A stretch of DNA of 64,000 nt, taken from contig NC_087072.1 of assembly GCF_026151205.1 (NCBI RefSeq), forward strand, positions 15,887,669 through 15,951,668, read 5' to 3'. Below are positions 1,168-34,459 of this stretch, one piece after another; position 1 is the stretch's first letter, and every line of letters begins with the position of its first letter. The notes beneath the pieces were generated by a model. That model saw only the letters and a program-made list of their open reading frames with translations. It ran no database searches and was not told where the DNA came from. This DNA comes from Bolinopsis microptera. Lineage: Eukaryota; Ctenophora; Tentaculata; Lobata; Bolinopsidae. The translations under genes and the position numbers were made by a program.

Positions 1168-4100
1168 GCGACGACTGCGCCAGAAAACATGCCGGACGTT
1201 GTGGATGACTTTGAAGTACCAGAGGAGGTAATGCTGAGGATCAGTGAGAGACCTGAGAATCTGGACAAGGTAGCAAATAGAGTACTAAAGTACGAGTTCA
1301 AGAAGAAGTTTCATGATTTTAGGGAAGGAAAGAAGTTACTTGTCCTTGATATTGATTACACTCTATTTGGTAAGCAATACTTTATTAGCGCGTGTTTACA
1401 GTTTGTTACCTTTAATTTTTGTATAGTACAGTCAAATCCGTCCTAATTTAAGCCTTTGTCGGACAAAATTCGCAACAAAGCGATTTTAACGGGATATGGT
1501 CGGGACAGGTCCCAGGAATCATTCCAGAGAGTTCCCAAAATCCTCGACTTCAGGAAAATCCACAATTACCACTTTTTTACCACTTTTTTACCACTTTTTT
1601 ACCACTTTGGTTTTCCGCAAATAAGTCACGTTCTGAATATCCTAGAAGATTCTAGTTTAAAGCATTGTGTTTAGAAAACAAAGAAAAACAACTTTTTCTT
1701 AAACAACTTTTTCAAAAATAAATTATTTAATTAATTAATTAAATAATTAATAAATTTTCAAATATTTCAAAAATACATTTTCAGCGGCCAGGTAGCGCAG
1801 TTGGTTAGAACGCCTGTCTTACAATCGTTAGGTTGCGAGTTCGAAACCCACTGACTGCCTGGTCGTGGGGTGAGCGTCGTCGACGTTCAGCTAAGGATCA
1901 TGAGTGGTCTATGCAGCCCCCCGGTCTACTCAGCCGAATACTCGAGAAATCGGGTGTGAGGGTTAAATGAGGAGCTGCACATTGCAGCAAAGTCTCGGAC
2001 GAAGAAAGTATGGTACACACTACCTTAACCGTCACTGGCCAAAAAAGATCCTTCGGCTTCCTGTAATTGGCTGGTTGCACTTGTGTAACATTGTGGCTGT
2101 TGGAATACACCGAAGTAAAATAAGTGTCTAGATAAAAAAAAAAAAAAAATAAAGAATGTTCACAATTACATTCCACGTATATTGAACTAATTTTTATGAA
2201 AATTTTGAAAATTTTCACTTACAATATTTTGGACTTGTAACATTTTCGAAATTTGTAAAGAAAAACCAATATTTACCACTTTTTACCACATTGAATCTCC
2301 GCTAATAAAACGACTTCTGAATGTCGTAGAAGGTTCTAGATTGAACCAATGTGTTCAAAATATAAAAGAGAACAACTTTTTATCTGACAATCTTTGGATT
2401 AGATAATTGAATTAAATAATTAATTGAATTAAATAATTAATTAAATAATAATTAAATTTTTAAAAATTTCAAAATATAATTTTTATCAAAAATATTTGCC
2501 GTGACGTAAAACGTAAAATGAATTTACTTGAATAACAGAACATACACCGTCACATAGATAAGATAACAGATTAAAAAAATCCAGATAAATGGAATAAACG
2601 GTAAAATATCCAAATTTTGTACGATACTATTATAGCTTATAACTATTTACACATCATATCTCTCGACTTAGTGTTGTGCTTAACTAAATTGTTAAACTGG
2701 TTTGTTTGGAAGCGTAAGCTTCAGCTTTACTTTATGTTGACTTCTCTTCCTAAAAATGTTGAATCTGCTAAAAATCGAGGACTAAAATCACACGAAATAG
2801 TTAATATTTTGACAAAAGAAGAACACATCGTGTGCCTGATACTGTACGCGTGCAGATTCTATGTAAGTAGCTGTCAACTAATATATGTACAATAATAGTA
2901 ATATATGTACAATAATAGTAATATGTTTTTACCGTTTTACTTTCAAGTTTGATTTCAGCGGAGAGCGCAACTAGAGGCATTCTTAACCAATACAATGTTT
3001 TAATTTACCAGGCAAATAAGGAGTTAGTTTCGGTGAATAGCTTTAAGAGGTCCTATTCTTTATCCTGACGCCTCTTATACCTTGTATAAATAAACAAATC
3101 AACGCACCACAGGTTGGATCAACAACCCCTGGTCACTGAACGAAATTAAACGGCAGTACAACGGCATGACTAATTCAGCTCAGAGTGACGTCTTGTGTGT
3201 ATTATTGCAGACAGTGACCATAGACCAGTTCCAAAGATTCATATCTAGCCTAGCGGTTAGAGCATCCGCCTTCTGCGCAGAAGGTTCAGGGTTCGAATCC
3301 CAGTGTCACCTAGTCTAGGGAGTAGCTAAGGATCCATTGGATCTATGCGATCTCAACGGTCGACTCAACCGAATGATAGGAAACTTAATTGAGGGTTAAA
3401 TGAGGAGGGTACCTGTTAAAAGTTCAAGAAACTTCCTAGGATACCCCTTCAGTGCATACTGTAAACATAGTGCTATTAACTATTATATCGGCCAATGAAG
3501 AGGAGTCCGTTGTAAATGAGGCAGGACCATCTTTAGTCCACGAACACAGTTTAAACAAATTTCAATTCTGTAACGTAGAGATCGCACCAAATGATGAATC
3601 CTCGAACCGGATTACAGACAGGGATAGTACACATATGTTAGGCTCTTACTAAGTTATCAATTCGCTCGCCCAAAAATTTCACGTGACTTTCTCCGTAGCT
3701 TAGTGCACTAGATTCCCACTTTCGGAATCGTTCTGAATAGCCGATCCTTACCAACTCCGTGGATCCGACTGGTGGTGTCTGATCCAGTGAAAGCGTGGCA
3801 CAGAAATCGTGCAGAAAGCCCAATTACGGTATCGTAGCACCCTGTCACGTGATAAGCGATTAGGTAATCATTGATAACCCAATCAATTTCGCTAACGAGA
3901 TAAACAAATTGCTTGATAACTTCGTCATTTTCAATCCGTTTCGCACATCGTTTTGCAGATGTTTTGATTTGCAGAGAGGCAGTTGAGTGGTCTACAGGTC
4001 TAATCAAGTTGATGTTTCTGTAATTGGTGATGATACTGATTTGCTTGTCATTTTACTGCACATGACAAAACACTTTGCATTTGACCACCTACTGTTTCTC

Positions 4101-12245: not shown

Positions 12246-15200
12246 TTAGGCATCAACAGTAACACCAGCTGATTCATTCTCGCTGCATTCGGAAATCTTT
12301 TCTGGGATATCAGCATCGGACGCAAGGCTCTTGGAGTCGCTGTCTACCGCTGCTGGAATCTTCTCCACACTGCCCTGCTAAAATCAGGCTCTAATTTCTT
12401 AAATTCCGTTTCCAATTTTCGCATTTTGGACGAAACTTAATAAGACCATGCGCAATGGTCATGCGATACAATAAATTGTCCAGTGACCATGCTTATTAAG
12501 ACGAAAAAGGTTTAAAAGGTATCCCCCGTGCTTAAAATTAAACAGTCTTTAGCAGAGCAGCAATTTGCGATTTTTGAGATCATCTTTTTAATGAACATGT
12601 CCCTGATTGTAATAGTGATATTAAGCATCATCTCGCATTGAGCTGTATGCATCAATTAGCAAATCAGTTTTATGATATCATGTCCTCATGCTGAAACAAG
12701 GGCACAGCGTTGATCATTGATAAGTGAGCTCAGCACATGTTTGCTGGTCTAGCTCCTTACGTTAGAATTTGAAAGCAGGGAAGCTGCTTGGGATGCTGCT
12801 TCGGAAGCTGCTCTATCTCCGTTTTCCAGACTTTCCCCCTTCAGAACGTGGGTCAGCAAGACGAGAACGGCTGCGTTCGTAGTGGCGTTTCTCTCTGTCT
12901 GTTCTTTTAATGCGATCAGATTGTCACTGAAATGATGGGATTTTTAGCGTACTTTACACCGACAATGTACATTTTCAATGATATCGTTTAATATGAGTGA
13001 GAACTGGGATACCAAAAAAAAAACTCTGTTTTATTTCATATGTTGAAATGAAACCCGAAAACCACTACAAAGTATTGTTGGGCTGTTGGTTTGTACATAT
13101 AAATCTCTGATTTATGGTAACCATGGTAACCTACTTGATACTTCTGAGGATGACAGTTTGTTCAGCGATCTGCTCTTTTCCTGACTTCTCAGCTTCCGCT
13201 TTCTCTCCGGCATCACCTGCGATAATATGTCAGTAAACTCACTGTACTTAATAGATTAGACGGAAACTTGCTTTAAAACGTTTTACTGATAGCATTCTAG
13301 ATGTAGATCGCTGGTACTTGAGTCGCAGTTCATGCTGCCTATTATGAGTATGATATTAAGCGTATGATAATAAGCAGACTCTTGGTTTGCGTATTTCAAA
13401 CATATTTACTAAAATACAAAGCTACACTCTACTGACGGTACTACAGAGAAGACGTAAAAACAATTCTCCATCTAAATACTGAGTAGAAGGAAAAGTACCT
13501 GATCGTTTACTTTTAGGCTCATGAGCCCGGAAGGAGTTGGCGGCAGGGGTACGCCGTCTAAAACATGCGCTGGGCGGGGAACTCTTGGTGGGAGGTGAAG
13601 GTGGGGGAGGGTGTGACTCTACCTTCTCCTTCTCCCCGTTCTTGCTCCAAGTTGCATAAATGATGGGTCTCATTTTCTGGAGACTATAGAGCTCAGTACA
13701 TGGCAAACTTATCAAACGTGAAATAGAGTGGGGGTTCTTTGACAAAAGAAGACAAGCTCGAGTAATTATCTCTCAAATTAATGATCTTGTGTCGAGCACG
13801 CTGTTCAGGGACTAAGCTCCTACTCACGCTCCAAGTTGAAACTGTAACAACAAGCGAAATCAGCTTTACACACGCAGACAGCCGCTTCCAGAGCTATACT
13901 GATACTGTACTACGAGAACACGCTCTCTCTCTCACTCTCACTCTCTTCTGCTCTCTCTCTCTCTCAGTCTCTGAGTCTAATCGCCGAATAATGAGATAAG
14001 CGATTTATAGCGGCTCCCTCTTGCTGAGACCGATGCTAATGACAGGAAGGGCTTACACCCCTCAGAGAATGGAGGGATCCCCCGCCTCTTGATTATATGC
14101 AATAATTCCTCCGAGGTGGAGATCCTTATGAGCTGGGTCCACAGTAAGAGTTCGGTACAGTTCGGACGATACCGCACAATAGGCCACTACTGCATTATGT
14201 ATGAGATCCGCGTCGAGAGTTACTTACTCAGTAAGCTTGCGCGGTCGTGAAGCTTGTCTATTAATGAAGATAATTCTATTTATAGATATAAAAGTTATAA
14301 CTTGTAGCTGTATTTTAAGACTAAGATAAGACTGATTTGCTAATGAACGATCAATTACTCTGATCATTTCCTGTTTTATAAAATAGTGCTTCTATGTTCT
14401 AGTGCATCAATGATCTCGTTCAACTAAGTGGCATGGTCTTCATGTTCTTCAAGGACGCTTATGAATAACATGAATAGTGAACTACGGATTCTCCTTTGAG
14501 CTGAGTACTGACACGAAGATTACACGTGAGGGCAGTGAGTGATGAGCGTAAACGGAGCCAGCAAGACCTCTGGAAGTTCTTAAATCTAAATAACATTTTT
14601 ATTTTAAGTCAAAGCTCCTCGCCGAGCGTTTGAAGGCTCTTGATGTATTCTAGAGAAATGACCTTCTTTTAGTGGTGGACTTTAACAAAGCCACCTACTG
14701 ACTCATTAATGTGGTAGCTATTCAGCTATTGTAAGTGATTCGTCCAAAGACCCTGAGTACACTGGGTTCTATTGCTTCTATTCTAAGATTGGCATCAACC
14801 TGGCTTGACGGGTGCATGCTAGTGGAAATACTAACCCTAGCTGCATCCAGGAACTGTTCTGCTACTAATGAGCTAGGTGGGGCGGCTAATCTTTACCAGT
14901 GTAGGAATTTACATTTAGACAGAAACGTTCTGTACATGATGCTAAGCGTAAGAAGCCCAAGACTAAGATTAAGAAACCTACTAACAGTGTACTAAATTGT
15001 CATAAGGTTGGACTAATGTAAAAAGTACAAGCCTCTTAATTCAAAACTATTTATAACTTCTCAAAATGTCCCTATTTCGGTGTCATAGTTTACCAATTTG
15101 CTAAATGCCTTAAGATGTTTTGAGAACTAAAACTGACAATATCAGATCAACTTAAACAATCAACACGATACAATATATATATATTTCGCAGATAAAATCG

Positions 15201-18200
15201 ACATGTGAAGATCACAAGTTAATTTCAAAAAAGGCACAAATAACAAAAAATATTAAGTATTCCCACGGCACAAAAAGCTAAATTCCACACTAAATCACAC
15301 TTACACTCAATGTAGGAGGGGATAGAAGGAGCCTTGCCATGAGACATGCCAGTGTAGACAGCGTTCAGATGCTTGGCCAGGTCCGTGTCTCCTAGTGTCA
15401 GATGCAGTTGGTCGTGGTGAGGTCCCGAACATACCTTCCTCTTGAACAACCTGGGTGGGGGAGACGGTGTGTTTTAAGTTTAAAAATGGAATTATGTTAC
15501 AAAGGTTGGTCTAACAATAAAATGGCTATCTGATCAAATTGCTGGTTCTCCAACTAGAACCAGCGTTTTCTGCTTCTCTCTCCAGTCAAACAGTAAGAGA
15601 AGGCAGACAGATGAACCTGGATAGAGGGAGACTAATAGGGTATTTGAATAGCACAGATTAATTTGGTGAAAATGAGCAGATACCTAGAAACAGGCAGGGA
15701 GCCTGGTTTAAAATCCACCGTAGTGACCGTGTGGGGTGCACTGGTTTTGGGCTTTGGAATTTTCGAAGCCATTTCTCACAGAGTACTACAGAAAATGATG
15801 TAAAACCAAGTGAATTTCTATCTAAGCAAATGAATATGCTTGAGCAGCTGGAGCTGTGATATAAACAAGGTATTTCATAATGAGGAGGCATCCTCTCATA
15901 AATAAAGCTGTCTCCTCTTAATCAATCACATGACCTGAAAATATCCTGTGGCTGCATTTATGGACTACGCATAGAAACTGAAGACTGGATTTAGTTGCAA
16001 CTCCCATTGTTCCCTCAGCTTAATTGAACTTCATTTACGTTAGTTCAGTGCGACTGTAGTGAAATTGTCTCAATTAATTAGGAATTTCAGTGTTCATGTT
16101 CGGGTTGGACTAAGGTTCATTAAGAAATATGACAAGCCTGTTTGACTAGAAATTATGTTCTCATGCACATATAATATAATGCATGAGAACATAATTTCTA
16201 GGCACTCACTTCGTTAATTTTCTTTTTTTGAATCATTAACAAACATAGTTGAATATTTAAATGTATAATATACAAATATTGAAGTATGTTTGCTAATGAT
16301 CCAAAAGAAGAGAATTTTAACCAACATATGATGTTCTACTGAATTAAAAAAGAAAAAGAGAGTGGAATACAGTTTGCAAACGGGCCTTATTAGTACCTTA
16401 TCTGATATAATTGGAGTATTAACCCTTATCTTTATTAGGCACTGAAGATGTCCGAAAATATTTTACCAATGATGTTATAAAGATTTTGTTTGAAACTTTT
16501 TAACTCATTCGTTGTCTGACTGTGGGAACTCTTGATTTTTGGTCTTGTTAGTACCTGTTAGCAGATCTGTCGCACTGGTATCTCTCTATCAGCTGGTACA
16601 TCTTATCCCAGCACTGGTGGGGTGTCCTGTGTTTGAACCTCTTCGAGAAGTTCTTGGACAGCAACTGCAGGTTGAAAACCAAGTCAGGGTTTTAAGTTTA
16701 TTTATTTGAATACATATATGCAATCATCGATTTGTGAAGTTTGATTTTCTACGAAGGAGAAACTTTATTAACCTGGAAGTCAATGTGGTCGTCTCCAAAT
16801 TCATCAATCTGGTGCCTGTAGAGCTCTATCAAGCAAACAATCTCCTCGTTGTCCCATGGCCCCATTTTAGCTTCGCTGAAGAAATAAAATAGCTATATTA
16901 ATATTAGGCGTCATCGTTTAATATAATAGTTAAACTTTACTATAATTAAATCACCCACATATTTAGCTATTTTGTAGCTGTGCAGCTTTTTGATTTAATA
17001 GCAAAATCAAAAGTTGTGCTTTTTTTGCCTTTGACCCTTAGTTGTAGTGAACGTACGGAACGTTCACTAAAAATAGTTTGTGAACGCGTTCGCTAAAAGA
17101 TTTTAACGTTCGGAACATAAGGAACGTTAATTGCTATAATGAAATTAAAATGCCGGACATAGCCCAATTATCCGGCAAAGTACTAGCGTTTCCATTGCCA
17201 CTTGCCGACAGGATTTGCCACGTTGTAACAGACAATCCAAATGTCAATAAATCTCTACGACGCTTAAGCGAAGCTGATTATGAACACATCATACGATCAT
17301 GCTGTGTAACCCACCAGTTCGATCTACTTGCCGAGGATGTCGGGAAGTTGAGCTGGACCAAGGAGACATTGTCGAATTGTAACAAAATAGTTACAAATGT
17401 GAAGAATCACGACATGATTCTAAAAACGTTAAGAACCCATTCTCTTGTCAATTTGCTAAAACCAGGGGAAACTCGGTTTGCCACCCAGTTTATTATGTTA
17501 GAGAGACTGAAGGGTTCCAAGGATACTTTGATTAAGACTTATATTGATCCAACCCTTACTGAGTCTGTTAGCAATAAAAGTAATGCATACAAGAATTTGT
17601 TTGAGTGCGCTAAAGATTTAGTGTTTGACCCCGATTTCTGGATAGAAGTCGACTGTTTATGCTCAATTCTCGAGCCGATAATGGTCTTGCTTAGATTTTC
17701 AGACAATACAGGGTGAGTTGAAAATAGTGTGTGGAAAGTAAATGGCTCTACTTTTTTTGACAAATGAAATTTCCAGTTAACTTTTGCATATTTAGGTAAT
17801 GAAAATATATACTTTTTATGATAATACAATTAAAATACTTAATGATTAATAATTTGCTCAACCCATCGTCCTTTATTAACTAGGACATATTGATAACGTG
17901 TAAGACAATTGTCTATAGCCGACTTGACTGTATTATGGGGGCAGGGGAGTCTTATGGAAATTTTCTCAAAATCGACTTTTTAGTTAGTTGTTTCTGATAG
18001 AGGGGAGTAATATTTATCAGATGCTTTTGATGCCGTGGAAAAATATCGTTCCTAGCCGAAATTATTGCCGGTGAAAGGTCAGTGCGTGTGTGGTAATTGT
18101 ATTGCGCGAGCGATTTTTGATCGCGTGCCCTGAAAATCGAGTCTAAAAATCCATTTTCTCCTACATTTTTTGAGCAATTACCCTGAAACTTTCAGTATAT

Positions 18201-21200
18201 GTTCTAAGGATCATTTAGAAGAGATGAGCCAGACAGAATTTTGAGATAGGCCTTTAAAAAATTTTTATTCGATTTTGAAAATCTTGGACCTCGTTTTTTG
18301 ATGATTTTTTGATTCTTAAGATTCCTGTTGGTTTCATCGGTGTAATTTATTACAAATATTATCTGTTCACCTTAAAGTTAGCAAATTTTGCTTTCCGCAA
18401 TAGAAACCATAAAAGTGATATGGTTAGTCTTGCCAACAAAAGGTGGCTCGAGCTCCATTCCCCCTACATTCAGTAGGGTTTTGTGCTCACCCGGCTTATC
18501 AGGGATATGATCAGCACACGAATCAGGATGTCTGGAAGGAGTTTCTAGATGTCATGGACACGTGGTGTGACGGCGCAACAAAGAAGAAGATAATTTCGCA
18601 GTACACGTTCTACCGAGAAAAAAGAGGCTTATTCTCTACTGACGCTGCCTCAAGTTTTAGCCAAGATTCTGACGATCCAGTCTCTTGGTGGAGCAACTTC
18701 GGTTGCGAGGTACCCGAATTACAGAGTTTTGCAATGAAAGCGCTGTCGCAATCGACATCAGCCTCACCCTGTGAGACGAATTGGAGCTTGTACGACTGGG
18801 TGATAAACAAAAAAAGAAACCGCCTCACAGTTGACAAGCAGCGAGACCTTATTTATGTTAACGCAAGTTTGCGTCTTATGAACAATTCACGAATTAAGGA
18901 GCAATAATTTCATTACTATTTGCTATACTAGTGACTTATTTTTATTCATTATTGTTTATTTACTGTCTAATTCCGACAACATGGTTTTATCTCATTGTAT
19001 CCATCTAAAGTTAAAAACTATCGGAAAAATTATCAAAATATTGACTAACGTTCACTAACGTTCACAAACGTTCACTACAAAATGATTGGAACGTACGTTC
19101 AGTACGACTAAGTTCAGCGTTCACTACAACTAAGATCAGAATTAAGCAATAGCTAAGGTTCATGATACAATCTAAATTTTGGGTTGGTTTTTTGCGAACA
19201 TTTGACTTTATAATGAATTTACGTTTACCTGATATGGTTAGGAGTTGGCTGGTGGCCATGATGGTATCAAAGGATGAGGAAAGATTAGTTGGTGCACAAC
19301 TTGATGAAAAACGATATTTTCTGGCAACTGATTTATGGGCATTGTCTCTTACTTTTATATTTGTGTGCTGCCAGGTGTTTTATCTTTTAATTTGCTAGCC
19401 AGATAAAATTATTGATTGAAATTCCCATTGAGCAGTGAGCACGATTGAAATGATTCAAATTATAATCGTTAAATGCACAATTTTCCTCTGTACTCCTGTA
19501 ACTCTTTCTTAAAATGAAACAATTGCCGTAATTAAAATCGTTCTACAAAGAGCGGTACGGACCACTTACGTTTCAAATGAATTCAAATTTTTCGTTAAAT
19601 CACCCTTGTTAAATATCTTTGGCACTATCTTACCGCCCACTTGCACTGGTCGGAAATTTATGGGTTTCGGCTCTCTGGAAAGTATTAAATTTTTATTTAA
19701 ATAACCCGCAAGGGAGGGTTGCATCTGTCACAATGTAATTACGCCATTAATTGTATAATATTTAGTTTCAAACAACTCCGTCGTAACTTAATTTATTGCA
19801 AGCGACTTAGTTTGAAGAAATGGAGTGACCTGTAACAGTGTAACCGGGCGAGGGGTTCTCCCCGAAATCAACCATAAATTTGACTTTGGGTATGTTGAAA
19901 ACATATTAAAAACACATGCTGTACGACCTCTTATAAAATTTCAACCTCAGGGAGAGTTCATAGTGCACCCTAATGTTAAATATCTCAACTTCAGGGAGAG
20001 TTCATAGCGCACCCTAACGTTAAATATCTCAACTTCAAGGAGAGTTCATAGCGCACCCTAACGTTAAATATTTCAACCTCAGGGAGAGTTCATAATCATA
20101 GCGCACCCTAACGTTAAATATCTCAACCTCAAGGAGAGTTCATAGCGCACCCTAACGTTAAATATCTCAACCTCAAGGAGAGTTCATAGCGCACCCTAAC
20201 GTTAAATATCTCAACCTCAGGGAGAGTTCATAGCGCACCCTAACGTTAAATATCTCAACCTCAAAGAGAGTTCATAGCGCACCCTAACGTTGAATATCTC
20301 AACTTCAGGGAGAGTTCATAGCGCACCCTAACGTTAAATATCTCAACCTCAAAGAGAGTTCATAGTGCACCCTAACGTAAAATATCTCAACTTCAGGGAG
20401 AGTTCATAGCGCACCCTAACGTTGACAGCATCACAAAATATTGACTAACGTTCACTAACGTTCACAAACGTTCACTACAAAATGATTGGAACGTACGTTC
20501 AGTACGACTAAGTTCAGCGTTCACTACAACTAAGCTTTGACCATCACCGCATGATGAATCGTCAGGCATTAAATAAGAAATGAGTGACAATTCCCGTATG
20601 ATTGTCAGCAAGGCTCTTACGGTGGTGAGTCCAGGGGGGTTTGAATAACCACAGCCTTTTTTACTCTTTGGAAAATAAGATAATAATTTACTAAATTTTT
20701 GACTCAAAAAGCTTGGTTATGTTAACTTAACTGATTAAGAACAGTCATGTTAACTGTCCTTAATAAACTGGTTAACCAGTATGGGATCAACGAGAGTTTA
20801 GTTTTTTGTCGCTTTATATTATTATTATTAGGGATCGTTCATAAAATACGTAAGCCAGATTGTTGCACTTTTGCAAGGATTTAAAAATCCCATCCCTTCT
20901 AAACTGGCTTACGTACTATGTGAGCAATTCCTAACTGACCGAAAGTTATGCCAAATATTCTTAAAATGTATATCTTCTTATTGAATGATCGTCAAATGAC
21001 TTTATATCGATAATTAAAATAAGTTCATTCATTAAAAGTGCGTTTCAGTACTTACAGAATAGGTGGAGGTGTTGGAGGTGGGGTTGGCGTCGGAGGAAGG
21101 GGTTCCGGTGTCGGTGGTTTAATTTCCGTTCCAGCCCACTTTCCTACCAGTCTCTTCCTCCAGTTTCCTAGCTGCTCAACGAGTGTAGAGTCACTCCTAG

Positions 21201-23103
21201 CAAGCGCACAGAGGTGTAAGTACAATTTCTACAATATAGCAAATGTGAGTATGCCAGTTACAGCCTTACACACTCAAAATCCTGACGTGGGCACTCATCA
21301 TTTGAATATTAAGTACTCATTTAGAGTTATGCTGGGGAAGCTATAAGTATAAGAAATTTGGGGCCGGCTAGGCTCTCCTCTCAATTGTTCTTCTAAGTGG
21401 TGGTAGACTCGGGGACTTGGTCCAGGCCTGCCTTCTAATGTTAACTGGTTTTACCTCACTAACTACATATTACATGGAGATGAATTTTAGCCTACTAAGA
21501 AGGTTATAATTTACCTTAGAGCTCCAAGTCCGCGATTATTGATTATGTTAATGAGACCAACTTTGGCAGCTGTCTCCTCTTTGCTGAGTGGCCCATGATC
21601 AGGGTCAAATAACCCCACGATGTCATTGTACCTCATACTGTGCTCCAGCTGAAATATGGAATATCTTGTACTACTGTCTACTCAGGTAGTTAAACAAAAA
21701 TACGTTTCAATACTGTAGGTCTAGGTTGCATTTAATGCATATTATAAATATAAATTATAAAATAGAAAATGGGATTCACCCTTCACCAGAATAGCAAATC
21801 AAATTTGTTATCCAAACCTCTAGAGCTACAGATGGAGGATGGGGTAGTCCGAGTTCAGCACACTTTCTTGCCACGTTGTAAACGTTGTTCAAAGCCTGCA
21901 TGATGTCCTTGAGGTCGACTAGATCGCTTACAGAGCAAGTGTCTGTCACACCGAAATTCTTGCTCCACCTTAGAACAGGATGTGTTAGTATTAACTAATT
22001 AATCGATTAAGTGAGTTTCAAAGTGATCTTACGGGGTAAAATAGAATAGGTCTAAGCATGGTTAAATTGAGAATATCAACGTTAATAATTCGAACTGTCG
22101 ACTCTTGGCAAAACAACTATTGCCTCTGATTAGTGATTACCTTATGAAAGTCTCAATGTTTATGCGAGCAAAGAAGACACTATTCCCGATGTTTTCCCTA
22201 AAGTGCACTAGTTTGAAAGGCTCCCCATATCTTTCACATCTTAGTTTACTGATGGCATTCACCAGTCTGCACAGGACGATTCCATCTTGCATGCACTGAA
22301 AAGATAAACGTTAACAAAGTTTTGCAACTTTTTAATTGCTAATTTCAGCCGCATTTATCTTTACTAACTATGGTGTGAGAATGCTACCTTGAGGTACGCC
22401 AAAAAACTTACCGAGACGAACTGCTCGATCTCCAAGCAGGTCTGAGTCTGTTCGGCTACCCAATGACACAGGTCCACAGCTAGAGGCAGGTACTCGACAT
22501 CTATCACTGCGGAGGTCAGGGACCCTCCTGCTGGCTTGTTGGGGGATCTTAACTTGTCGCTTCCACCCTCTAGGGGAAGATACAGTTAGAATTTATTTGA
22601 TAACCCCGTGAAGTAACCCTTGCAGGACTTCGAGACAGAATGTCAAATTAAAAACAAACGAAGAAATTATTTACTTTTAATGAAATGACAACTCTACCAT
22701 GCATGATAGAATTGTTTAGAACTCTTCTGAACAGCATATCGTGAAATTCTCGACAAAAACTAAAAGAATAACACGTTGTATAGCTCTGATAGCAATTCGA
22801 CCTGGATTGCTTTATTTTAAGTGTCGGGCTACTCAGATCGCTATTTACCCAGCTTAATTTTCTACTCTACCAGTAGAGAACTCATACCTGATCTTGGAAT
22901 CCCCGAAATTCCCTCACTCGACCCTTGGCGGGAAATTTTTCGATTTTGCCCCAAATTGGGAACCATCACAGTGGAAGTGGTTGTCCTCGACCGTCTTCTA
23001 CTCATCTCTACTTTAGTTAATTGTCAGAACATAATGTCTACTCACTTGTTGCATTATTAATAGCCTCCCAAAATTTAGATTGAGACTTTCTCAGGATCGT
23101 CAT
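12246..23103 (-). CDS. Calponin-homology plus trihelix/Myb-SANT-like domain protein
   Basis: Fifteen minus-strand exons join in phase: 23103-23046, 23010-22888, 22569-22412, 22295-22141, 21968-21818, 21648-21515, 21196-21056, 16875-16773, 16664-16555, 15450-15305, 13841-13828 (14-bp microexon, tentative), 13676-13499, 13216-13135, 12926-12761 and 12374-12246 (stop at 12248-12246). They give about 615 residues. Residues ~87-212 are a CH domain closest to the GAS2 type (DGIVLCRLVNAISK, SVFFARINIETFIRWSKNFG). A Pro-rich linker follows (PPTPEPLPPTPTPPP). Residues ~308-378 resemble a trihelix/Myb-SANT domain (GPWDNEEIVCLIELY, RTPHQCWDKMYQLIERY). Then come a Pro-rich basic stretch and a tail with KEQTERNATTNAAV, as in other Myb/SANT-like proteins. 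No GAS2 microtubule-binding (GAR) domain was found. A CH domain suggests actin or microtubule binding; the trihelix suggests DNA binding. The one-gene model rests on phase continuity across the 4.2-kb intron; two genes remain possible. Confidence 0.62.
13911..13975 (+). repeat. CT microsatellite
   Basis: Interrupted (CT)n tract in an intron of the CH-trihelix gene. Confidence 0.9.
16146..16201. repeat. Perfect inverted repeat, 22-bp arms
   Basis: CTAGAAATTATGTTCTCATG and its reverse complement are separated by a short AT-rich loop. It lies in an intron of the CH-trihelix gene. Confidence 0.85.
16215..16318. repeat. Second adjacent inverted repeat
   Basis: GAATCATTAACAAACATA is mirrored by TATGTTTGCTAATGATCC about 50 bp on, with one or two mismatches. 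It follows the 16146-16201 hairpin directly and could be a MITE remnant. Confidence 0.65.
17150..18907 (+). pseudogene. hAT transposase, truncated and frameshifted
   Basis: The frame 17150-17716 encodes the middle of a hAT transposase of the DUF659 type: VVTDNPNVNKS, the CVTHQFDLLAEDVGKL block, and LLKPGETRFATQFIMLERL. The frame to 18907 encodes the C-terminal dimerisation region: FCAHPAYQGYD, DPVSWWSNFGCEVPELQSFA, SPCETNWSLYDWVINKKRNR. Between them (17717-18440) there are stops. Near 18470 the frame shifts, since NKRWLELHSPYIQ lies in another frame directly before VGFCAHPAYQ. The N-terminal BED-finger and first catalytic region are missing because only about 110 bp separate the left terminus from this frame. 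The protein is not expected to be active. Confidence 0.85.
19034..19134 (+). repeat. Internal duplicate of the hAT right terminus
   Basis: These 101 bp are identical to 20434-20534, exactly 1400 bp downstream, and include the terminal inverted repeat. The flank after this copy (ATCAGAAT) does not match the left target duplication, whereas the flank after the distal copy does. Confidence 0.9.
19940..20425 (+). repeat. 44-bp minisatellite, about 11 copies
   Basis: The unit contains CTCAACCTCAGGGAGAGTTC followed by ATAGCGCACCCTAACGTTAA. Copies differ by a few substitutions (CAGGG/CAAGG/CAAAG), and one has a small insertion near 20094. It lies within the captured segment of the hAT element. Confidence 0.9.
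20831..20935. mobile_element. Short inverted-repeat (MITE-like) element
   Basis: GGGATCGTTCATAAAATACG plus TAAGCCAG is mirrored by CTGGCTTACGTACTATGTGA plus GCAATTCC around a ~35-bp centre; the inner 12 bp (TACGTAAGCCAG) match perfectly. The size and the terminal motif suit a small non-autonomous DNA transposon. The target duplication is unclear. Confidence 0.55.
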
Positions 23104-23579
23104 CTGATTGGCGGATGAGGATCTCGATATAATATCAACCACAAACTTCAAATCAGGACAATTAAATTACAACAACACAACTATTAGCTACAAGAAATTA
23201 AGAGTATTGCTCGGTATTACAGGGATTAACTAGCCGGCCATCCCCAGATTTGGATCATAGTAATTCCAACGGACAATGAACGAATGAGGCAATGAAGACT
23301 GATGTACATGGCTTTCAGGAGCATGTGAGGTCACCTAGACTTCACATTTATCCTCTCAGTCATCAACTATTCGACTTTCTGTCCAGGGTTCCACTTACAT
23401 CAAGTTGAATACGACTGAGATCGAACCTTTGACGTCATGCTCTTTGTAATGCGAGTTGGAGGTTGACAGGTGACTATATTGATTACATGTGATTTTGAAG
23501 TAAACGCTTGTATGAGGAGGGTGTTATTGGAATGAGAAAAGTGTAACCCACTGATTAGGTCCTGTCTACTCTAAGTTAA

Positions 23580-23624
23580 GCCTGGATGCAGACATCCAGG
23601 CTACATTGTATAATATACAATGTA
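23580..23624. repeat. Two adjacent perfect hairpins
   Basis: GCCTGGATG-CAGA-CATCCAGGC is followed at once by the palindrome CTACATTGTAT/ATACAATGTAG. They lie just upstream of the CH-trihelix gene. Confidence 0.8.
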
Positions 23625-24225
23625 GATTGGCAATTTGTGGGGGAGAAAATATAAGTTTGTTTCCCAATAGACGTTTACTCTCTACAACTATTAGTTCTTT
23701 CAAGAGATATTAGAAAACACTCTGTGAATGGAAGTGGTATGGACATAGACTAGAGTAATTAGGAAATAATATGAAATAAGATGCACTTATGCTAGTACAG
23801 TGTACACTAAGATGCATCAATCAATTAACTTTAACCGCCACCTGGGTCGAAAGAAATTACTTTTTGCCAGGAATCAGGATCTCGACATTGGCCGGTGGGC
23901 AAGGCTAAGTATTTGTAATAAACAGCATGCCTTACTGCAGAGGGAGGGTCCCTAGCTCATAAGCACGATGTTGAAAACATTTAATTTATAGTCAAGCGTC
24001 CCCGCTTGGCAATGATAAGGTAATGACTAATGAATATTGAAAACACATTCATTTCTATGTAAGTCTCGTACATTCCTTTTTCAGTAGTTTCTATTGGCAA
24101 AAAATGTCGCTAAATCGAAAATCGGCGTGACAACGAAAACAATCAAAACTGTAGAAATTCTACATCAAAATCACAAACAAGCATCTATATTCTAGAAGTA
24201 GAACAAACGATGAAGCAAATATGCA

Positions 24226-24302
24226 AGTCCTCAAATTGAGAAACCGCAACCATTATCCATATTCGAAAGTCCTCAAATTGAGAAACCGCAAACATTATCC
24301 AA
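24226..24302 (+). repeat. Two-copy tandem duplication
   Basis: GTCCTCAAATTGAGAAACCG and the following bases occur twice, about 42 bp apart, with a few differences. Confidence 0.8.
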
Positions 24303-24433
24303 AGTAAACCTAGAATTAGACCTAAACGTAGACCTAAGTAACAATTTAAACCACAATCCACATCACTGCTTCTGACAGCTCTCCAGGAACTGATGTAGTA
24401 CTATATATAGTAAGCAGATTATAACTACCGGAG

Positions 24434-24486
24434 ACAGACGATCGCTTACCGTTCAGTAACGAGTGGTTGCCGGGTAAGCGGTCTGT
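24434..24486. other. Extended hairpin with 14-bp bulged stem
   Basis: ACAGAC-gat-CGCTTACC pairs with GGTAAGCGGTCTGT across a ~22-nt loop. The stem is longer than its neighbourhood would predict and could be an RNA structure or a transposon remnant. No function is shown. Confidence 0.45.
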
Positions 24487-25458
24487 GGTTTTATATCGGC
24501 ATGGTGGTGGACGTTAACAAACGTAACAAACTATAAGTAACTTATTATCAGTTTATCTGATTATAGAGGCAGGTACACACACGACACAGTATACTGACGA
24601 CCTGGATCTGACTAAACCTTTAGAAGATTACTCTGGCAGTGAACGCTGAGTTTGATCCAAGTCCTCTCGTACAAAGAGTATTGTAACTATAATGATCGGG
24701 TATAAATGTGCATGACGTCTGGTAATCTAGAGTGGTAATGTTCACAAAGCAAGGTCTATCAAAGACTGTATTTAAATATAGATAACGATTAACGATGTAT
24801 AAAATTGTAAACTTTTTAAAGCAGCACTGTTTATTTGAAGATTTGAGATGGAAACATGAACAGCCTGCCTACCATTTAGCTACTTATGGTTAATGTTTCG
24901 AGAGCCTTGCCGTCTATTATAATATTGGGATCCAGCAAAGGCAAACGACCCCTTAGATCTTGCAGAACAGTGGTCTTTTAGCACGAGCTCTTGGCTAGGG
25001 TGACTATGATTTATTCAAGATCGCTCTATTGAACAGCCCCAAGATTCTAACATCGTAAGTAGTAATCTTAGTCATCCAGTCTCCACCGGGAAATGAGCAC
25101 GGGTAGTACAGTACTCTCCAGTATATATAATGTAAATGAAACTTCTTAACGAGGCTTGATAATATATATACCCTGGTGAGAGAAGAAGTGGAGAGTACAC
25201 ATACTCGCACATGTACCACTAGCATGCAGCTCATCTATACCTGGGACCCTAGGTAATATAAGCAGCGGATTCGAGAGAGCAGCAGCAAATGACTGGCCTC
25301 TCTTCTTCTCTCTTCTCGGAGAATATATTTCATTGTGACGCAGGTGATCAGCCACACACTGATAGAGTCTTACTCACTTACTGTTCAGAATGTGAGAAAA
25401 TGAGAGTTCAGTACATATCCTCCTTGTGAGACCGAGTGTTGAATTGAGTGAGTCTTGT

Positions 25459-25511
25459 CACGTGCCACGTGGGCTGAAATCGTGTCACGTGGGAGGTAGT
25501 CGTGTCACGTG
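25459..25511. promoter_or_regulatory. Cluster of four CACGTG E-boxes
   Basis: CACGTG occurs at 25459, 25466, 25486 and 25506; the last three are each 20 bp apart. Three have a 5' GT (GTCACGTG), the form preferred by USF/MITF/TFE-type bHLH-zip factors. Which gene it would serve is unclear. Confidence 0.5.
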
Positions 25512-26973
25512 ACCTGAATAACTAGCTAACTATGTGTATTGAATGAGGTGTATTCAGGTTTACGTCATGTGGCAAAGAATGATATTCTAAACTCTATAGA
25601 TAAAGCACCGATTTTGACGTTAGTATCGTCAGATCAATTAGGTGCAGACACGCCGCATATAGTTTCACTGCGTCATAATATTATACGATACGTGGCTTTG
25701 TCTCAATATTATATGAGAAATACAGGTAGAATATATCGTACGTGGTGGAATCAGATTACGTTTCAATGATGATGCTTGAGGAATTATACTCAACACATCC
25801 CATAGTTCAGATGGGTTTTAATAAGTTTTAATAAGTTGTGATACAATAAGATCAGCATCTGGGCCTATTTTCACAAGATATCAAACGATATGCGCTCTGA
25901 AAATCGTTATTCGGGAAGAGGATTTCATAGTGACTGAGTCATGCATTTCACTAGACTGAGTGGACTAATTATTCGTGACAAAATGTGAAAATTTGATATT
26001 TAATGGTTTAACTGCCCTGTGAAAATCGGCGTGGGACATTTATTATAATAAAGTATAAAAAGCTTAATAAACTAGTTCATGTGTGAAGCAATCGGAGCAA
26101 TTATAGAATTATTTCCTTGTGGCCATGTTGCTTTTCAAGCTATTTTACTTGTGAGCATTGTTCTGTCTAGTTACAAAGTGTACAATGAACAATTTAAACA
26201 TATTACATATGACTTATCGCTATTATAGTAGATGTCACATCACTGTCAGTTAAAGATAACTTATGAGAAAACGGATAGTTGCTCAATGCTCAAGCATTGA
26301 AACTGAAGCAGTTGTTCAACAACTAGCTATATTAGCCGATTAAGCTGTAGCGATAGTCGGTTCAGAGCCGGTTCATAGCCAGCTCTTGAACCCGTTCGGT
26401 TGTTTGCTCTAATATGTACACTACTGCAGTCTGACGTTCGTAACCATTAAACCATGATCATAATCATAAGATAGTTTATTATGATAAATAATGGATGAAG
26501 GCAATTGTAGGAACCTATAATACCTGTAGGATCGAAACAGTGCATGCAGATAAATAGAAACCGAAAGATTTGTATCAATTAGAAATGTGCGTGGTATGTG
26601 CCGGTTGATGGTTACTGTAACCTCTGCAATTCACCGCCATCAAAATGGCTCAATGTTAGTTATATAAAACGGTATTAACATCTTTTGATTCGAATCCTGA
26701 AGCCGCCTTAAGTCAGTCATGATCTTATTGTACTAATCGATATTTTGAGACACGAATACAGGTGGAATATAATTATTAAATATATTTACTAGAGCCATTA
26801 GTAACAACTGAACTATTCAACGGAACTATTCAACTGAACTTGGTATATTAAATATTCATCATCCACATTTAAGTGAGTCATTAATAATACATGAACCGTG
26901 TATACTAACTTGGTATAAACTTTATCCTTCAAAATGTAATTTGATGTAACCCATATTCTAAACCAAAACTTAC

Positions 26974-28081
26974 CACCATTGAGATCGTTAAGTTTGCTCT
27001 TGCTTCCCGCCTTTCTGATCCCCGCCCCATTCGTAGTTACTTTATTCGAGGTCCCCTTGCCACCAGAATTAGCGGTCCCTTTGGCAGCCTTATCTTTCGC
27101 TGTTTTACTGTCCTTAGCCACCTTTGTGTTCATATCACCTGATGTTTAAGGGTACGCTTTTGAAATATAGGGCTTTATAGTTTAATCCAAGGTTTCAGGG
27201 GTCACACATATGCATGCTTCGCCACGAGATTACAGAAAACCTATTTTAAAATTTGTCGTTTCCAAAAATAATCATTATTCGCAACAAATACAGTCATAAA
27301 GAAATAGTGCATATTTTTCTGAAAATACAAATTGGGACTGTACATAGGCTTTCACAACACGGTTAACCAACAAAGCCTCAAAGAAGGAGGTAAAGTGGGT
27401 TTCACAACAAAAAAGACCTGCTCAAGACGATGGCTTATTAATCAAGAAGACCTTTCTATAGACAATTAATAAGAAGAATAAAAAGAATGCAATGACTCCG
27501 AAAACAACGTACTACAAAATGCTGCAACTATAGTTCAATATTACAAAGAAAAGTCTTATCTCCCTACACCGGCACCCAAGATAGTAAACATTACATAGAT
27601 AACACAGACAAGTGTGCAGTCTGTCGAGCCACACACGTGCTTTACTTGGAACATAAGTGACGGTGTGCAACCGAGCTGGTGCTGCACTGCTCTCATACTC
27701 TCATATACCCATTATCACGTTAGAGCACATGCAATCCCACCTGTTTCCTACTACAGCAGCAAACACTAGGATATTTAGCTCTATAGGAAGTAATGCTTGT
27801 ACACACTAGGATATTTAGCTCTAGACTCTAAAGGACATGAAGCACCATAGGATATAAGGATAGACCCTGAAATGCAGCAAACACAACGCACCAGTAAACA
27901 CGGAGACAGTAACATCCAGACCAGGACCAGGATGCTCTGCACATAATGCTGGCCCTTGAGAGGACTGCTGCTCCAACTTACTCCTATTGTCCTCCACTTC
28001 TGGGGGTTTAACCACTACTTCAGGGGGTTTAGCCACTACTTCCAGGGGTTTACCGCTCATGACTAACTCCGTCTCGCTCAT
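26974..28081 (-). CDS. Lys/Ala/Gly-rich low-complexity protein, 5' exons
   Basis: Exon 1 (28081-27982) starts MSETELVMSGKP and contains a degenerate KPPEVV repeat (three rounds). It ends at the strong donor A/GTAAGT in phase 1. Exon 2 (27138-26974) starts in matching phase, giving EDNRSDMNTKVAKDSK, and continues with Lys, Ala, Gly, Thr and Asn-rich sequence (AKGTANSGGKGTSNK) to a GTAAGT donor, again phase 1. I could not find the next exon, so the 3' part is missing from this model. There is no recognised domain; a disordered, basic segment is likely. The two-exon linkage is supported by phase and splice sites only. Confidence 0.5.
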
Positions 28082-30751
28082 GACAAAGTCTGCGGGGGCT
28101 CACAAAAAGGGGGCTAAAAACGGCGGGAACTAAACTCTGCGGCAATTGTGTGTAGATGTCTAAAGCCCAAGAAACTTAGAGCATGACTCTTAGAGAAATG
28201 CTTACCAGAATATTGCGTAACTAAAAATTAAGAGTGTTACTGTACGATCTCCCCGAGCTGTAGTACTGGCCTACAGCGTGAGCCTTGCCCGGTACACAAT
28301 TATGTGGCATGTAATTATTAGACAACAGTTGAAGAAGCTGGACTGCCCTCGTTATGTCATTATCTAAGCTCTGGAATGTATAATTGTGGTGGATCGCCGA
28401 AAATGTGGATGATTCGAACTTTAATTGATCAATTGTTTCCGCGAACCGGAGAAAGATTTAGGCTGTATAAAGATTTATAAATTTCGAAATCGATATCAAG
28501 CTAAAATAGGCCGACTAACGAGTAGCCTAGACAGCAGTGTAGATAAATATCGGCATAGATAGACTCTGAATTTTTTCGAACGCGGAGTCTTGACACAAAC
28601 CATTGACAGTGGATCTAAACACTCGCATTTTTGTGAAGCACTCAGATTAGAGAGTGACAAGATCGATGATACGACTTGTCATAAGTCTAAACGACATTGA
28701 TTACGTGCACTCAAAGAAGGGGCATGTGGTGTGTCAAGGATACAAAGGCGCTGATGTCACCGTGATGCATCTACTCCGGACCATGGTGATTGAACTTTTG
28801 TGATCAACCAGTTTAGCCCCTACACCACGTGGGAGATATTCACACGCCTAGCCTTTGCAGAGGTGTGGTGGACATTTTGTGTCATCAAGATTTTAAGGAG
28901 AAAGCAAATACGATACGTAATGGTTACAGAAGAATATTGAGAGTTTGTGTTTAGTTTTTTTACACCGCAGCAACAAATGATAATGAGATCTCACCAAGAA
29001 CCTAAAACATCCATCTCTCTGCATCAACTCTTGAGTGGAAATCATTCAAACATCAGTGGTGGTCAATTTGATGCCCAACGTTTTTAGGAGTAATGATAGT
29101 GATGATGAATTACAACGTCAAATTGCGAACTTTTAACGTAGCCGCGGCTGGTTTAGGAGATTTAATAGCACCGAACCAGGAAATGATTTATCCGCTAACC
29201 GATTTACTGCATTATGATCATTGCCTAGAGATTACCGTGCACATTTCACTTTTAGACGTGTCTGTTATAGTTTATTGATCGACATGCAAACAAACACCGC
29301 TCAGCTTCCAGAGCAATCCTACCGTTTGGGAAACTGTTAACTTTAAGATTACAAGATCTATCCTCGCAAGTCTTACCCTGAGTCCTAGAGTGTTTGTCAA
29401 AAGGCTGGACTCCAACCGAACAGGTTAACAACAGGACAAGAGAGGCTTTAACTTCAGAAGAAGAGACTTCAAGAGAGACTGCTGCCATGACGAGTGCCAC
29501 GTCTATGATATCCACCGCTATCATCTGTGAAGAAGATGAAATACGTGCCACAACTCCCATGCACTTGGGAAGAACTTCCCCACAATATGTAAAAAGTATT
29601 AGAGCCTCGACTTTGGAAAATGAAGAAGAGGTAGATCTTGAGAGGGTCAGATGTAATCGAGTGGGATCATATCCTCTGGAGAATAGATCTAGCAGGTTAA
29701 TAAGTTGTTGAGTCATATTATTACTAGAAAGTTTGGTAAAACAATGTAAGCAAGTTAATTGATTACAATTTAATAATATTTAGTAATTTAGTAATATTTA
29801 ACTAATTTTGTGGTCTATTATTCTATACTGTCTCATTTGTAATTGGTTCGTTTATGGAGACCATACACTGAGCGTTTAGGAGTTCACCACAATTTTGAAT
29901 TTTCATTCAAGTTCACCCCCTTTTGACAATAGAGCTCCTTGGTGCCTTCATTTTAAAGGCACAAAGAAATTTGTAAAGTGTTTTATACGGAAATGCTTGT
30001 GGTAAATCAGTTCCCAGAAAATGTTCACAATTACATAACTTATGGTGAAAGCGGCAATGATCATCACCTAACGGGCCAACGCCACAAAGAATTGAGCATT
30101 CATAATCTCATAAGTTTATACCGTTTAAGTGTGTAACTATTCTCCGACTGGGTCTCCAATCTGGCATATATTCCCAAAGAGAAATGTATAATCATAATAG
30201 TAAGTCAGTAGATGTTGGATCTGTTGATTAAGTCCTTTCTCTGGTCTGCATTCCTTAAATTTTCAGACTGATATATGTCATATGTGGCCATGTGCTGGAA
30301 TTGTATTTTATTGTAGTAACGGATGCACTTACTTTGCATTATTCTCTCAATCATATAACTCATAACTACACATACAGTCTAGTCTAAGCACGACCGTGGA
30401 CATTTATACCTCTTTTACTCAGTTTAAATATTTGTCATTAATATCGCTCAGAGGGATCGTTCAGAAGGTTTATTTTTAGTTAGTTCAAAATATTATTTTC
30501 ATTTAATTTTAAAATTAACGAGGTCTGATCGTCATCTTCTTACAGCGTTCGATGTCTGTGTGAAGGTACAATGGTGACATCCTCAGGAATAAGAAATAGT
30601 CATGTTAAAGTGTTTATTAAATTTGTGCTAAATACGCGCCATTCAGCACTGTTATACGAAATTCTGTAAAACCCTAAAATCGTCATGTTTAGGTGCCTAA
30701 AAACTATGTAAATATTAAATTTGAGATCTGAAATTTTGCAGAGCTTCTAGT
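28082..30751. other. Intergenic; overlapping unassigned frames at 29252-29716
   Basis: A 154-codon frame on the minus strand (29716-29252) overlaps a 105-codon frame on the plus strand (29394-29711). The plus product is charged and Ser/Thr/Glu-rich; the minus product is hydrophobic in part. Neither resembles a family I know, and neither has splice support. The rest of the stretch shows nothing. Confidence 0.35.
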
Positions 30752-30777
30752 ACTTGAACAAATTGACTACAAAGTTT

Positions 30778-30795
30778 GGGGGGGGGGGGGGGGGG
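30778..30795 (+). repeat. G18 homopolymer
   Basis: Uninterrupted run of 18 G, matched by a C9 run at 34435-34443 in the opposite inverted end. Confidence 0.95.
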
Positions 30796-31387
30796 TCCAA
30801 CCCGATGTCCGATATGAGGGTTGATGAGGCCAAAATCGGAATCGGAAAAATCGGAAAAATCGGAAAATTGAGAAATTTACAGAATCGATCTCTAAAACCT
30901 CTCAGAAGTGATATAATTCAACCAGAACCCCTACATATGCTATATTGTTATATGAAAACAAACCAATTGGACATTCCAATAGTATGTTTTATGTGTTTTT
31001 CCACTGCAGGGGCTTATTACTGTTATTAGTATGCTCACTACTAGTTGGAGTTGTCATGTACTCCCAGACCCGAGTGCTTTGGCCTTTTGACGTGACATCG
31101 ATTGTCGGATTGTTTCTGCTCATTAATTTTATCCCTGTTACTTGTTATTATGTATTAGTACAACACTAGGTACCGGGTTATATTTTGTGGTCCGGTCTTT
31201 AAACATACCATGATATCACTAGTACACTGCACCTTAAATGTATACCAGTAGTAGTCAAGTACATTTGTATCGTAACACATGCTTGGCTGGGGGATCATGT
31301 TTTGTGTCCGTTCGGTACCCTATATTTTCAAAACGGAAAAAAAGTAGGGCGAACAAAAACGGACAAAAACAGACAAAACATTTACAT

Positions 31388-33960
31388 GTCCTCCTCCTCC
31401 CTAGTCTTCCTCCTCCTTCTCATCAGTCCTCCTCCTCCTCCTAAGTCTTCCTCCTCCTCCTGAGTCCTTCTCCTCCTCAGTTCTCTTCAGTCCTCTTCCT
31501 GACTCCTCGTCCTCGTCCTTCTCCTCAGTCCTCCTCACCCTGCTCCTCAGTCCCCTCCTCCTCCTCAGTCCTACTCCCAGTCCTCCTCCTTCTCCTTCTC
31601 CTCCTCCTCCTCCTCATTTCTCCTCCTCATTTCCCCTCCTCATCCTCCTCCTCCTTCTCCTCCCCATCAGTCCTCCTGAGTCCTCCTCATAGTCATCATC
31701 CTCCTCCTGAGTCCTCCTCCTCATCCTCGTCCACCTCCTGAGTCCTCCTTCTGAGTCCTCCTCCTCATCCTCCTCCTCAGTCATCCTCCTCTTCCTCCTC
31801 AGTCCTCCCCAGTCCTCCTCCTCCTCATCCTCCTCCTTCTCCTCCTCATCAGTCCTCATCCTCTGTCCTCCTCACAATCGTCCTCGTCCTCATCCTCATC
31901 CATAGTCCTCCTCCTCCTTATCCTCCTCCTCAGTCCTCCCCCAGTCCTCCTCCTCATTATTCTCCTTCTCCTCCTCCTAGCCTCATCCTCCTCCTCCTTC
32001 TCCGCTTTCTTCTTCTCCTAATCAGTCCTCCTCCTCCTCCTCGTCCTTAGTCCTCGTCCTCCTCAGTCTTCCTCCTCAGTCCTCCTCAGTCCTCCTCAGT
32101 CCTCCTCCTTATCATCCTCCTCCTCCTCCTCAACAGTCCTCCTCCTCCTCCTCAGTCTCCTCTTCCTCATCGTCCTCCTCAGTCCTCCTCCTCCTTCTCC
32201 TCATCAGTCCTCATCCTCAGTCCTACACTAGTCGTCCTCGTCCTCAGTCCTCCTCCTCATCCTCCTCTTCGGGCTCTTCCTTCTTCTCCTAATCAGTCCT
32301 CCTCCTCAGTCGTCCTCCTCCTCTTCCTTAACCCTTGTCCTCATCCTCCTAGTCCTCGTCCTTAGTCTTCGTCCTCCTTAGTCTTCGTCCTCAGTCCTCC
32401 TCCTCCTCATCCTCCTCATCCTTCTCCTTAGTCCTCCTCCTCCTCCTCAGTCCTACTCCTCAGTCCTCCTCCTCTTCCTCATCCTCTTCAGACTTCAGTC
32501 CTCTTCCTCAGCGCTCATCTTATTCCTCCTCAGTCCTCCTCCTCCTCATTCCCCAGTCCTCCTCCTACTCGTCAGTCCTCCTCCTCCTCCTCCTCCTCGT
32601 CCTCATCCTCCTCGTCCTCCTCCTCAGTCCTTCTCCTCCTCAGTCCTCCTCCTTCTCCTCCTCAGTCCTCCTTCTCCTTCTCCTTATTCTCCTCCTCCTC
32701 CTAAGTCCTCCTCCTCCTCCTCAGTCCTCCTCCTCCTTCTCCTCCTTTTCCTCCTTCTCCTCTTTCTCCTCCTACTCCTAAGTCCTCCTCCCCCAGTCCA
32801 CCTCCTCATCAGTCCTCCGCCAGTCCTCCTTCTCCTCCTTCTCATCCTCAGTCCTCCTCCTCATCATCCTCCTCAGTCCTCCCCCAGTCCTCCTCCTCCT
32901 CAGTCCTCCCCAAGTCCTCCTCTTCCTCAGTCCTCCCCCAGTCCTCCTTCTCCTCCTCATCATCAGTCCTCCTCCTCAGTCCTCGTCCTTCTCCTTCTTA
33001 TCAGTCCTCCTCCTCAGTCCTCAACAAGTCCACCTCTTCCTCAGTCCTCCCCCAGTCCTCCTTCTCCTCCTCCTCATCATCAGTCCTCCTCCTCAGTCCT
33101 CGTCCTTCTCCTTCTTATCAGTCCTCCTCTTCAGTCTTCCTCCTCGTCCTCGCTCTCGTCCTCCTCCTCAGTCCTCCTCCTCCTTAGTCCTCCTCCTCCT
33201 CACCAATCAGCTGCTCCTCTTCCTCAGTCCTCCCTCTCCTCTTCAGTCCTCCTCCTCCTCAGTCCTCCTCCTCCTCAGTCCTCCTCGGTCCTTCTCCTCC
33301 TCCTCAGTCCTCATCGGTCCTTCTCCTCCTCCCCAGTCCTCCTCTTTCTCCTCAGTCTTCCTCCTTCTCCTCCTCCTCCTCCTCAGTTCTCCTCCTCACC
33401 CTCCTCCTCCTTCTCCTCTTCCTTCTCCTCCTAATCAGTCCTCCTCCTCAGTCGTCCTCTTCATGTCCTTAGTCATCGTCCTCATCCTCATCGTCCTTAG
33501 TCCTCGTCCTCATCCTCCTAGTCCTCGTCCTTAGTCCTCGTCCTCATCCTCCTAGTCCTCGTCCTGGTCCTCCTCTGTTCTCCTCAGTCCTCCTTCTCCT
33601 CAGTCCTCAGTCCTCCTCCTCAGTCCTCCCCCAGTCCTCCTTCTCCTCCTCCTCATCCTCAGTCCTCCTCCTCCTCCTCCTTCTCTTTCTTATCAGTCCT
33701 CCTTCTCAGTCCTCGCTCTCGTCCTCGTCCTCAGTCCTTTTCGTCCTTAGCCCTCGCGTTCTCTTAGTCCTCCTCCTCCCCGTCCTCAGTCCTCCTCTTC
33801 CTCCTCACCAATCCTGCTCCTCTTCCTCAGTCCTCCCTCTCCTCTTCAGTCCTCCTCCTCTTCAGTCCTCCTCCTCCTCCTCTGTCCTTCTCGGTCCTTC
33901 TCCTCCTCGTCAGTCCTCCTCCTCCTCAGTCTTCCTCCTTCTCCTCCTCCTCCTTTCTTT
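31388..33960 (+). repeat. 2.6-kb TCC/CAGTCCTCC polypyrimidine satellite
   Basis: The plus strand is almost entirely C and T, built from TCC triplets with a recurring CAGTCCTCC phrase and local duplications; the block around 32930-33010 recurs at about 33050-33120. Open frames on the minus strand (Glu/Asp/Arg/Gly-rich) are by-products of the repeat and are not called as genes. Confidence 0.95.
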
Positions 33961-34459
33961 TAATTTTATTTAAAATTGTGTAGACTATTCTTTGTATCTA
34001 ACTGAGGATTGGAAGTTTGAGAAAGGACCATGGTCAATGGTCATTAACCGTGCTACCCATTTCTGCAGATAGCCTGTTACAAATTGTGGAGACAATTTAA
34101 ATCAAAAGTTACTAAAGCGTTCCCTATTTGTTACTATTGTTATTACCAACCGTACCTCTTTCAATTGTGGACCGGGGTGGATGTTTCTGTCAAACAAGAG
34201 TTGATACGACAGTGTGTTGTTTTTCGGACGAAACGATTCTTGTTTGGAACTAGAAACCATTTTGGGGTTCTGGGACCACCACCAATCGATTTCTTGTCAT
34301 ATTTAAGTACAGAAATAGCTACCTATATCGCCTAGAAACCTCAGAGGAAAGATTTAAATTTTCCCGATTTTTCCGATATGAGGGTTGATGAGGCCAAAAT
34401 CGGGATCGGAATGATCGGAAATGATCGGGTTGGACCCCCCCCCAAAGTTTTGTTCAAGT

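Follow-up and report, generated by a model that had tools for sequence, protein, structure and literature searches.

A GAS2-type calponin homology gene and a neighbouring trihelix gene, possibly joined across an intron that carries a hAT transposon

Here we report on a minus-strand locus in a 64,000-nt stretch of contig NC_087072.1 (the window, to whose positions all coordinates refer), where a calponin homology (CH) domain of GAS2 type and a trihelix domain of the Myb_DNA-bind_4 family are encoded on the two sides of a hAT transposable element. An initial annotation had proposed that both domains belong to one transcript made of seven exons on the CH side and eight further exons on the trihelix side. 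The chain was rebuilt (Table 1): the ATG at 23103 is preceded by AG, 21056 precedes GT, 16875 follows AG, 12246 ends a stop codon, and the spliced sequence of 616 codons, including this stop, contains no other. What the sequence shows at this locus is both domains, an open frame that stays in phase, splice sites that could be used, and the hAT insertion.

Splice sites were scored with generic donor and acceptor frequencies, untrained on this genome, and were ranked among the 719 GT and 813 AG sites of the region. The codon score is the fraction of 1000 open non-coding stretches that scored equally high, so that low values are coding-like. Its codon table was built on 1156 codons, including the open frame 44185-45420, which has no Pfam match, and E3-E6, E8 and E9, each of which was omitted while being scored. 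The measure misses real exons, as E4 is coding by homology and yet scores 0.285; failures are therefore weak evidence. Outside the exon chain, the gene search in the window covered chosen open frames.

The CH domain extends over E3-E5, where the spliced exons matched PF00307 with 37.2 bits (cut-off 26). The closest PDB sequence was GAS2 (E 2e-05, the best of six listed at E up to 1), followed by calponins (E 0.0011 and 0.026) and by three weaker, unrelated entries, and the GAS2-like features noted earlier are borne out by this result. The domain resembles that of GAS2 and GAS2-like proteins in its type, with the aligned stretch FFAR.N...F..W....GV..TC common to both, and in its position near the N-terminus. 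GAS2 and GAS2-like proteins, however, carry a GAR domain, whereas none was found in the CH unit of the window, which would be followed by the trihelix unit instead if there is one gene. When profiles were run on the spliced protein, as had been suggested at the outset, CH and Myb_DNA-bind_4 passed and GAR was unmatched; the GAR profile found nothing in the spliced CH unit at E up to 10, a range in which the HMMER filters drop most matches above 0.1. Five GAR motifs (GGGW, HDPC and the like) were absent from the six frames of the window, although this search would overlook any motif interrupted by an intron. A scan of the three minus-strand frames of 20001-29998, with stops read as X, matched no family and missed even the CH domain, and hence had no power.

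Not all seven exons on the CH side stand equally firm. E3, E4 and E5 are backed by homology, as the domain match crosses their junctions, and for three of the seven (E3, E5, E7) no more than 4.5% of the null stretches equal the codon score. E2 is doubtful: intron 1 (23045-23011) would measure only 35 nt, and its acceptor ranks poorly among AG sites (top 58.5%). E1 spliced directly to E3 (23103-23046 to 22569-22412) stays in phase and gives 575 codons including the stop, and E2 is more likely an alternative first exon from the ATG at 23005, or spurious, than a member of the chain.

The trihelix-like domain that had been described from the letters was recovered across E8-E9, with 30.1 bits to Myb_DNA-bind_4 when searched alone (cut-off 27) and 27.1 bits, barely over the cut-off, within the longer chain. 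The E8/E9 junction is supported by homology because the match crosses it. The trihelix region had no convincing PDB match, the best being a TNFAIP8-like protein (E 0.067) and then EAF1 (E 0.17). The same 4.5% limit was kept by six of the nine exons tested on this side (E8, E9, E11, E13, E14, E15), the misses being E12 (0.148), the 14-nt microexon (0.450) and a candidate E10 at 15774-15684 (0.112). This E10 was rejected as an internal exon: it is out of phase with E9, its sole possible acceptor is poor (top 50.6%), and an in-frame stop stands one codon ahead of its ATG (15772). Being in phase with E11, it could serve as an alternative first exon.

The two units are separated by a gap of 4180 bp, of which 3498 bp are occupied by the hAT element; its placement within the intron (17037-20534), flanked by the target-site duplication (TSD) GGTCAAAG, was confirmed. 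The outer ends of the element are identical 17-bp inverted repeats, each flanked by GGTCAAAG, and one end recurs at 19118-19134. Between its two copies are found a 44-bp tandem array (19934-20423) and the candidate cassette exon E7b. On the plus strand, the element contains a piece of Dimer_Tnp_hAT (34 bits, cut-off 21.4) and a piece of DUF659 (33.3 bits, just short of the cut-off of 34.7) that covers only the C-terminal part of that domain. The 8-bp TSD, the terminal inverted repeats and the dimerisation domain identify the element as a hAT transposon. It is probably non-autonomous, as its transposase reading falls into two separated pieces and the DUF659 piece, the first, is incomplete. With the element and one duplication removed, the gap measures 674 bp.

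Table 1. Exons of the rebuilt chain, the candidate cassette and the hAT element, in window coordinates.
Feature	Position	Strand	Remarks
E1, candidate first coding exon	23046..23103	-	ATG 23103 right after AG acceptor-like site; donor top 0.6%; codon score 0.392, not coding-like
E2 of the 15-exon chain	22888..23010	-	Acceptor top 58.5%; donor top 1.0%; codon score 0.490, not coding-like
E3, start of CH domain	22412..22569	-	CH profile match; codon score 0.005, coding-like
E4, core of CH domain	22141..22295	-	CH match spans E3/E4/E5; codon score 0.285
E5, end of CH domain	21818..21968	-	CH match; weak donor (top 13.4%) and weak acceptor (top 25.7%); codon score 0.004, coding-like
E6, after CH domain, no known domain	21515..21648	-	Open, in phase; codon score 0.134
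E7, proline-rich linker	21056..21196	-	Donor TCT|GTAAGT, top 8.3%; codon score 0.042
E7b, optional cassette exon within hAT	19570..19674	-	105 nt; phase fits both E7 and E8; acceptor in top 5.3% and donor in top 2.1%; codon score 0.432
hAT element	17037..20534	.	Ends CTTAGTTGTAGTGAACG; 8-bp TSD GGTCAAAG at 20535-20542 and 17029-17036
E8, first half of trihelix	16773..16875	-	Myb_DNA-bind_4; acceptor top 0.6%; codon score 0.005; ATG at 16865
E9, second half of trihelix	16555..16664	-	Myb_DNA-bind_4 match crosses E8/E9 junction; codon score 0.045
E11, next in phase after E9	15305..15450	-	Acceptor top 1.4%; codon score 0.020, coding-like
14-nt microexon, required by continuous model	13828..13841	-	Acceptor top 1.6%; codon score 0.450
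E12, with its own ATG at 13673	13499..13676	-	Codon score 0.148
E13	13135..13216	-	Codon score 0.009, coding-like
E14, tail helical-looking by eye	12761..12926	-	Codon score 0.014, coding-like
E15, tail acidic by eye, and stop codon	12246..12374	-	Codon score 0.000 (0/1000 null stretches as high)

The reading put forward here, with a probability of about 0.45, is a single minus-strand gene from about 23.1 to 12.2 kb that would carry CH and trihelix in one mRNA, whose production and function we infer. A GAS2-type CH gene without GAR would probably have been joined to a neighbouring trihelix gene, with E7 spliced to E8 across an intron that measured 674 bp until the hAT element was inserted. In its favour, the gap was small before the insertion and E7 matches E8 in phase. 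The acceptor of E8 belongs to the top 0.6% of the 813 AG sites, so that E8 is probably spliced to something, and few nearby partners in cis exist for it besides E7, given that the 674-bp gap holds a single donor of at least 5 bits (5.3; the donor of E7 itself has 4.9). Introns longer than 674 bp make up two of the 13 others in the 15-exon model. We give equal weight to two neighbouring genes on the same strand (about 0.45 each, a judgement without computation), where the CH gene ends just past E7, possibly by read-through into the stop after the E7 donor or with a short terminal exon, and the trihelix domain belongs to an independent gene whose start codon is the ATG at 16865. The acceptor of E8 would then possibly serve an intron in the 5' untranslated region or spliced-leader trans-splicing, perhaps in an operon. 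Trans-splicing and operons occur in several animal groups; no spliced-leader RNA was found among the RNA-family matches.

Several observations weigh against the single gene. The ATG at 16865 has a good context (aaaATGG) and lies 10 nt past the E8 acceptor, directly ahead of the trihelix domain, as expected of an independent gene; such an ATG would also persist if two former genes had fused. Neither domain spans the E7-E8 junction, which for this reason has no homology support, and the in-phase join adduced for it does exist and is worth just a factor of three, one chance in three. The donor of E7 reaches just the top 8.3%, and reading past it meets a stop immediately (though GTAAGT in that phase always gives one). 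Four acceptors of at least 3 bits in the 674-bp gap would supply the CH unit with a short tail (1 to 16 residues) ahead of a stop; the strongest, at 6.3 bits, gives 16 residues. Variant poly(A) signals are present in the same gap, namely ATTAAA at offsets 550 and 627, TATAAA at 49 and 237, AGTAAA at 363, 390 and 608, and AATATA at 235 and 650. CH and trihelix are, moreover, an unusual domain pair, and in the literature searched 'calponin homology' was not found alongside 'trihelix' or 'Myb SANT-like'. Two genes, on the other hand, would require a 3' end and a promoter to fit in 674 bp, and AATAAA is absent from the gap outside the hAT element; this absence hardly counts, as the 2 kb that follow the stop at 12246 lack AATAAA as well. 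The single gene is burdened further by its E11-E12 link, which hangs on a microexon of a kind that chance readily yields. Every junction had been described as phase-consistent, and the chain is indeed open throughout, but only by way of the 14-nt microexon at 13841-13828, since the exon ending at 15305 is out of phase with an exon starting at 13676 or 13683. The gap between E11 and E12 (1.6 kb) holds one bridge with both sites of at least 5 bits; 500 shuffles gave a mean of 1.08 such bridges, with one or more in 58% of the shuffles. Under stricter thresholds (acceptor at least 8 bits, donor at least 5.5 bits), one real bridge was found and 13.8% of the 500 shuffles contained one. These frequencies, the width of the gap, the phase mismatch and the ATG within E12 are consistent with a downstream unit that is itself divided, with E8-E11 as the trihelix gene and a further gene from the ATG at 13673, in which case the C-terminal tail is separate. 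Such a division is compatible with one or two genes and appears unlikely to us, the acceptor of the microexon being good (top 1.6%) and its bridge the sole one with both sites of at least 5 bits. Because the E11-E12 link is uncertain, the transcript may extend to E15 or stop before it; the C-terminal tail has no Pfam match. A last variant, compatible with one gene, concerns the cassette within the hAT element (19674-19570), which would be a real exon and join the two domains by a transposon-derived linker. It is the only cassette in phase on both sides at 5/5 bits, and one of equal strength occurred in 4% of 300 shuffles; with a minimum length of 100 nt, a further 300 shuffles gave 2%. At the looser level of 5/5 bits, however, 29% of shuffles held such a cassette; its codon usage resembles that of non-coding DNA, it has no Pfam match and it was chosen after looking. 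The cassette is probably due to chance, and we consider its exonisation improbable.

If the single gene is real, its protein, having a CH domain and no GAR, could retain no more than the actin side of GAS2; with a trihelix domain added, the simplest view of it would be a regulator tethered to actin. In GAS2, the CH3 domain alone binds F-actin and the GAR domain binds microtubules (PMC12084551), and pairs of CH and GAS2 domains are described for Amoebozoa, Fungi, Choanoflagellata and humans (PMC9145010). The N-terminal type-3 CH domain would contact F-actin without the microtubule side provided by GAR, and the trihelix domain would bind DNA or a chromatin partner. Animal Myb/SANT-like proteins (trihelix, Myb_DNA-bind_4) include the MSANTD proteins; the trihelix unit resembles them in that the domain stands at its own possible N-terminus and is followed by a charged tail, and it differs from them in that a CH domain would come first in the fused model. 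Somewhat short of an even chance is the more specific proposal of a lineage-specific gene in which a GAS2-type cytolinker has exchanged its GAR domain for a trihelix domain, giving a putative actin-binding transcription or chromatin factor, with the hAT element in the fusion intron perhaps donating an optional exon.

Relatives were searched for in collections that are not of animal origin and therefore say little: in viral contigs, the CH region (E3-E6) gave five pattern stretches and the trihelix domain 19, and in prokaryote genomes the joined query E3-E11 gave 42, none of which was confirmed. As one protein, the locus would directly tie a module that binds actin to one of DNA-binding type, which would offer a simple possible path from the state of the cytoskeleton to gene regulation, and it would represent a new domain pair born from neighbouring genes. 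As two genes, it would be ordinary save for a CH gene without a detected GAR domain, and would show that in-phase joins in gene models can mislead.

The remainder of the window contains several other features. An open frame at 1168-1443 (+) matches UBLCP1 (PDB 3shq, E 5e-10), a Kv-type potassium channel exon lies at 42286-42735 (+; best PDB match KCNB1, E 1.3e-25), and a rhodopsin-family receptor segment lies at 50335-51105 (-; 44.6 bits, without a PDB match at an E of 0.0001 or below). These three matches make an animal origin of the window very probable. About 1.4 kb past the channel exon and on the same strand, there is an open frame of 412 residues (44185-45423) without a Pfam match. The only RNA-family match, a weak tRNA-like one at 3246-3303 (+), reached 29.5 bits (cut-off 29), and ARAGORN found no tRNA. 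The region at about 30000-34500 is repeat-like, with extreme GC skew (-0.739 in 32001-34000) and long low-complexity open frames. Two near-identical translated pairs on the minus strand (38997-39201 and 40306-40507; 52336-52651 and 55232-55547) look like local duplications or repeats.

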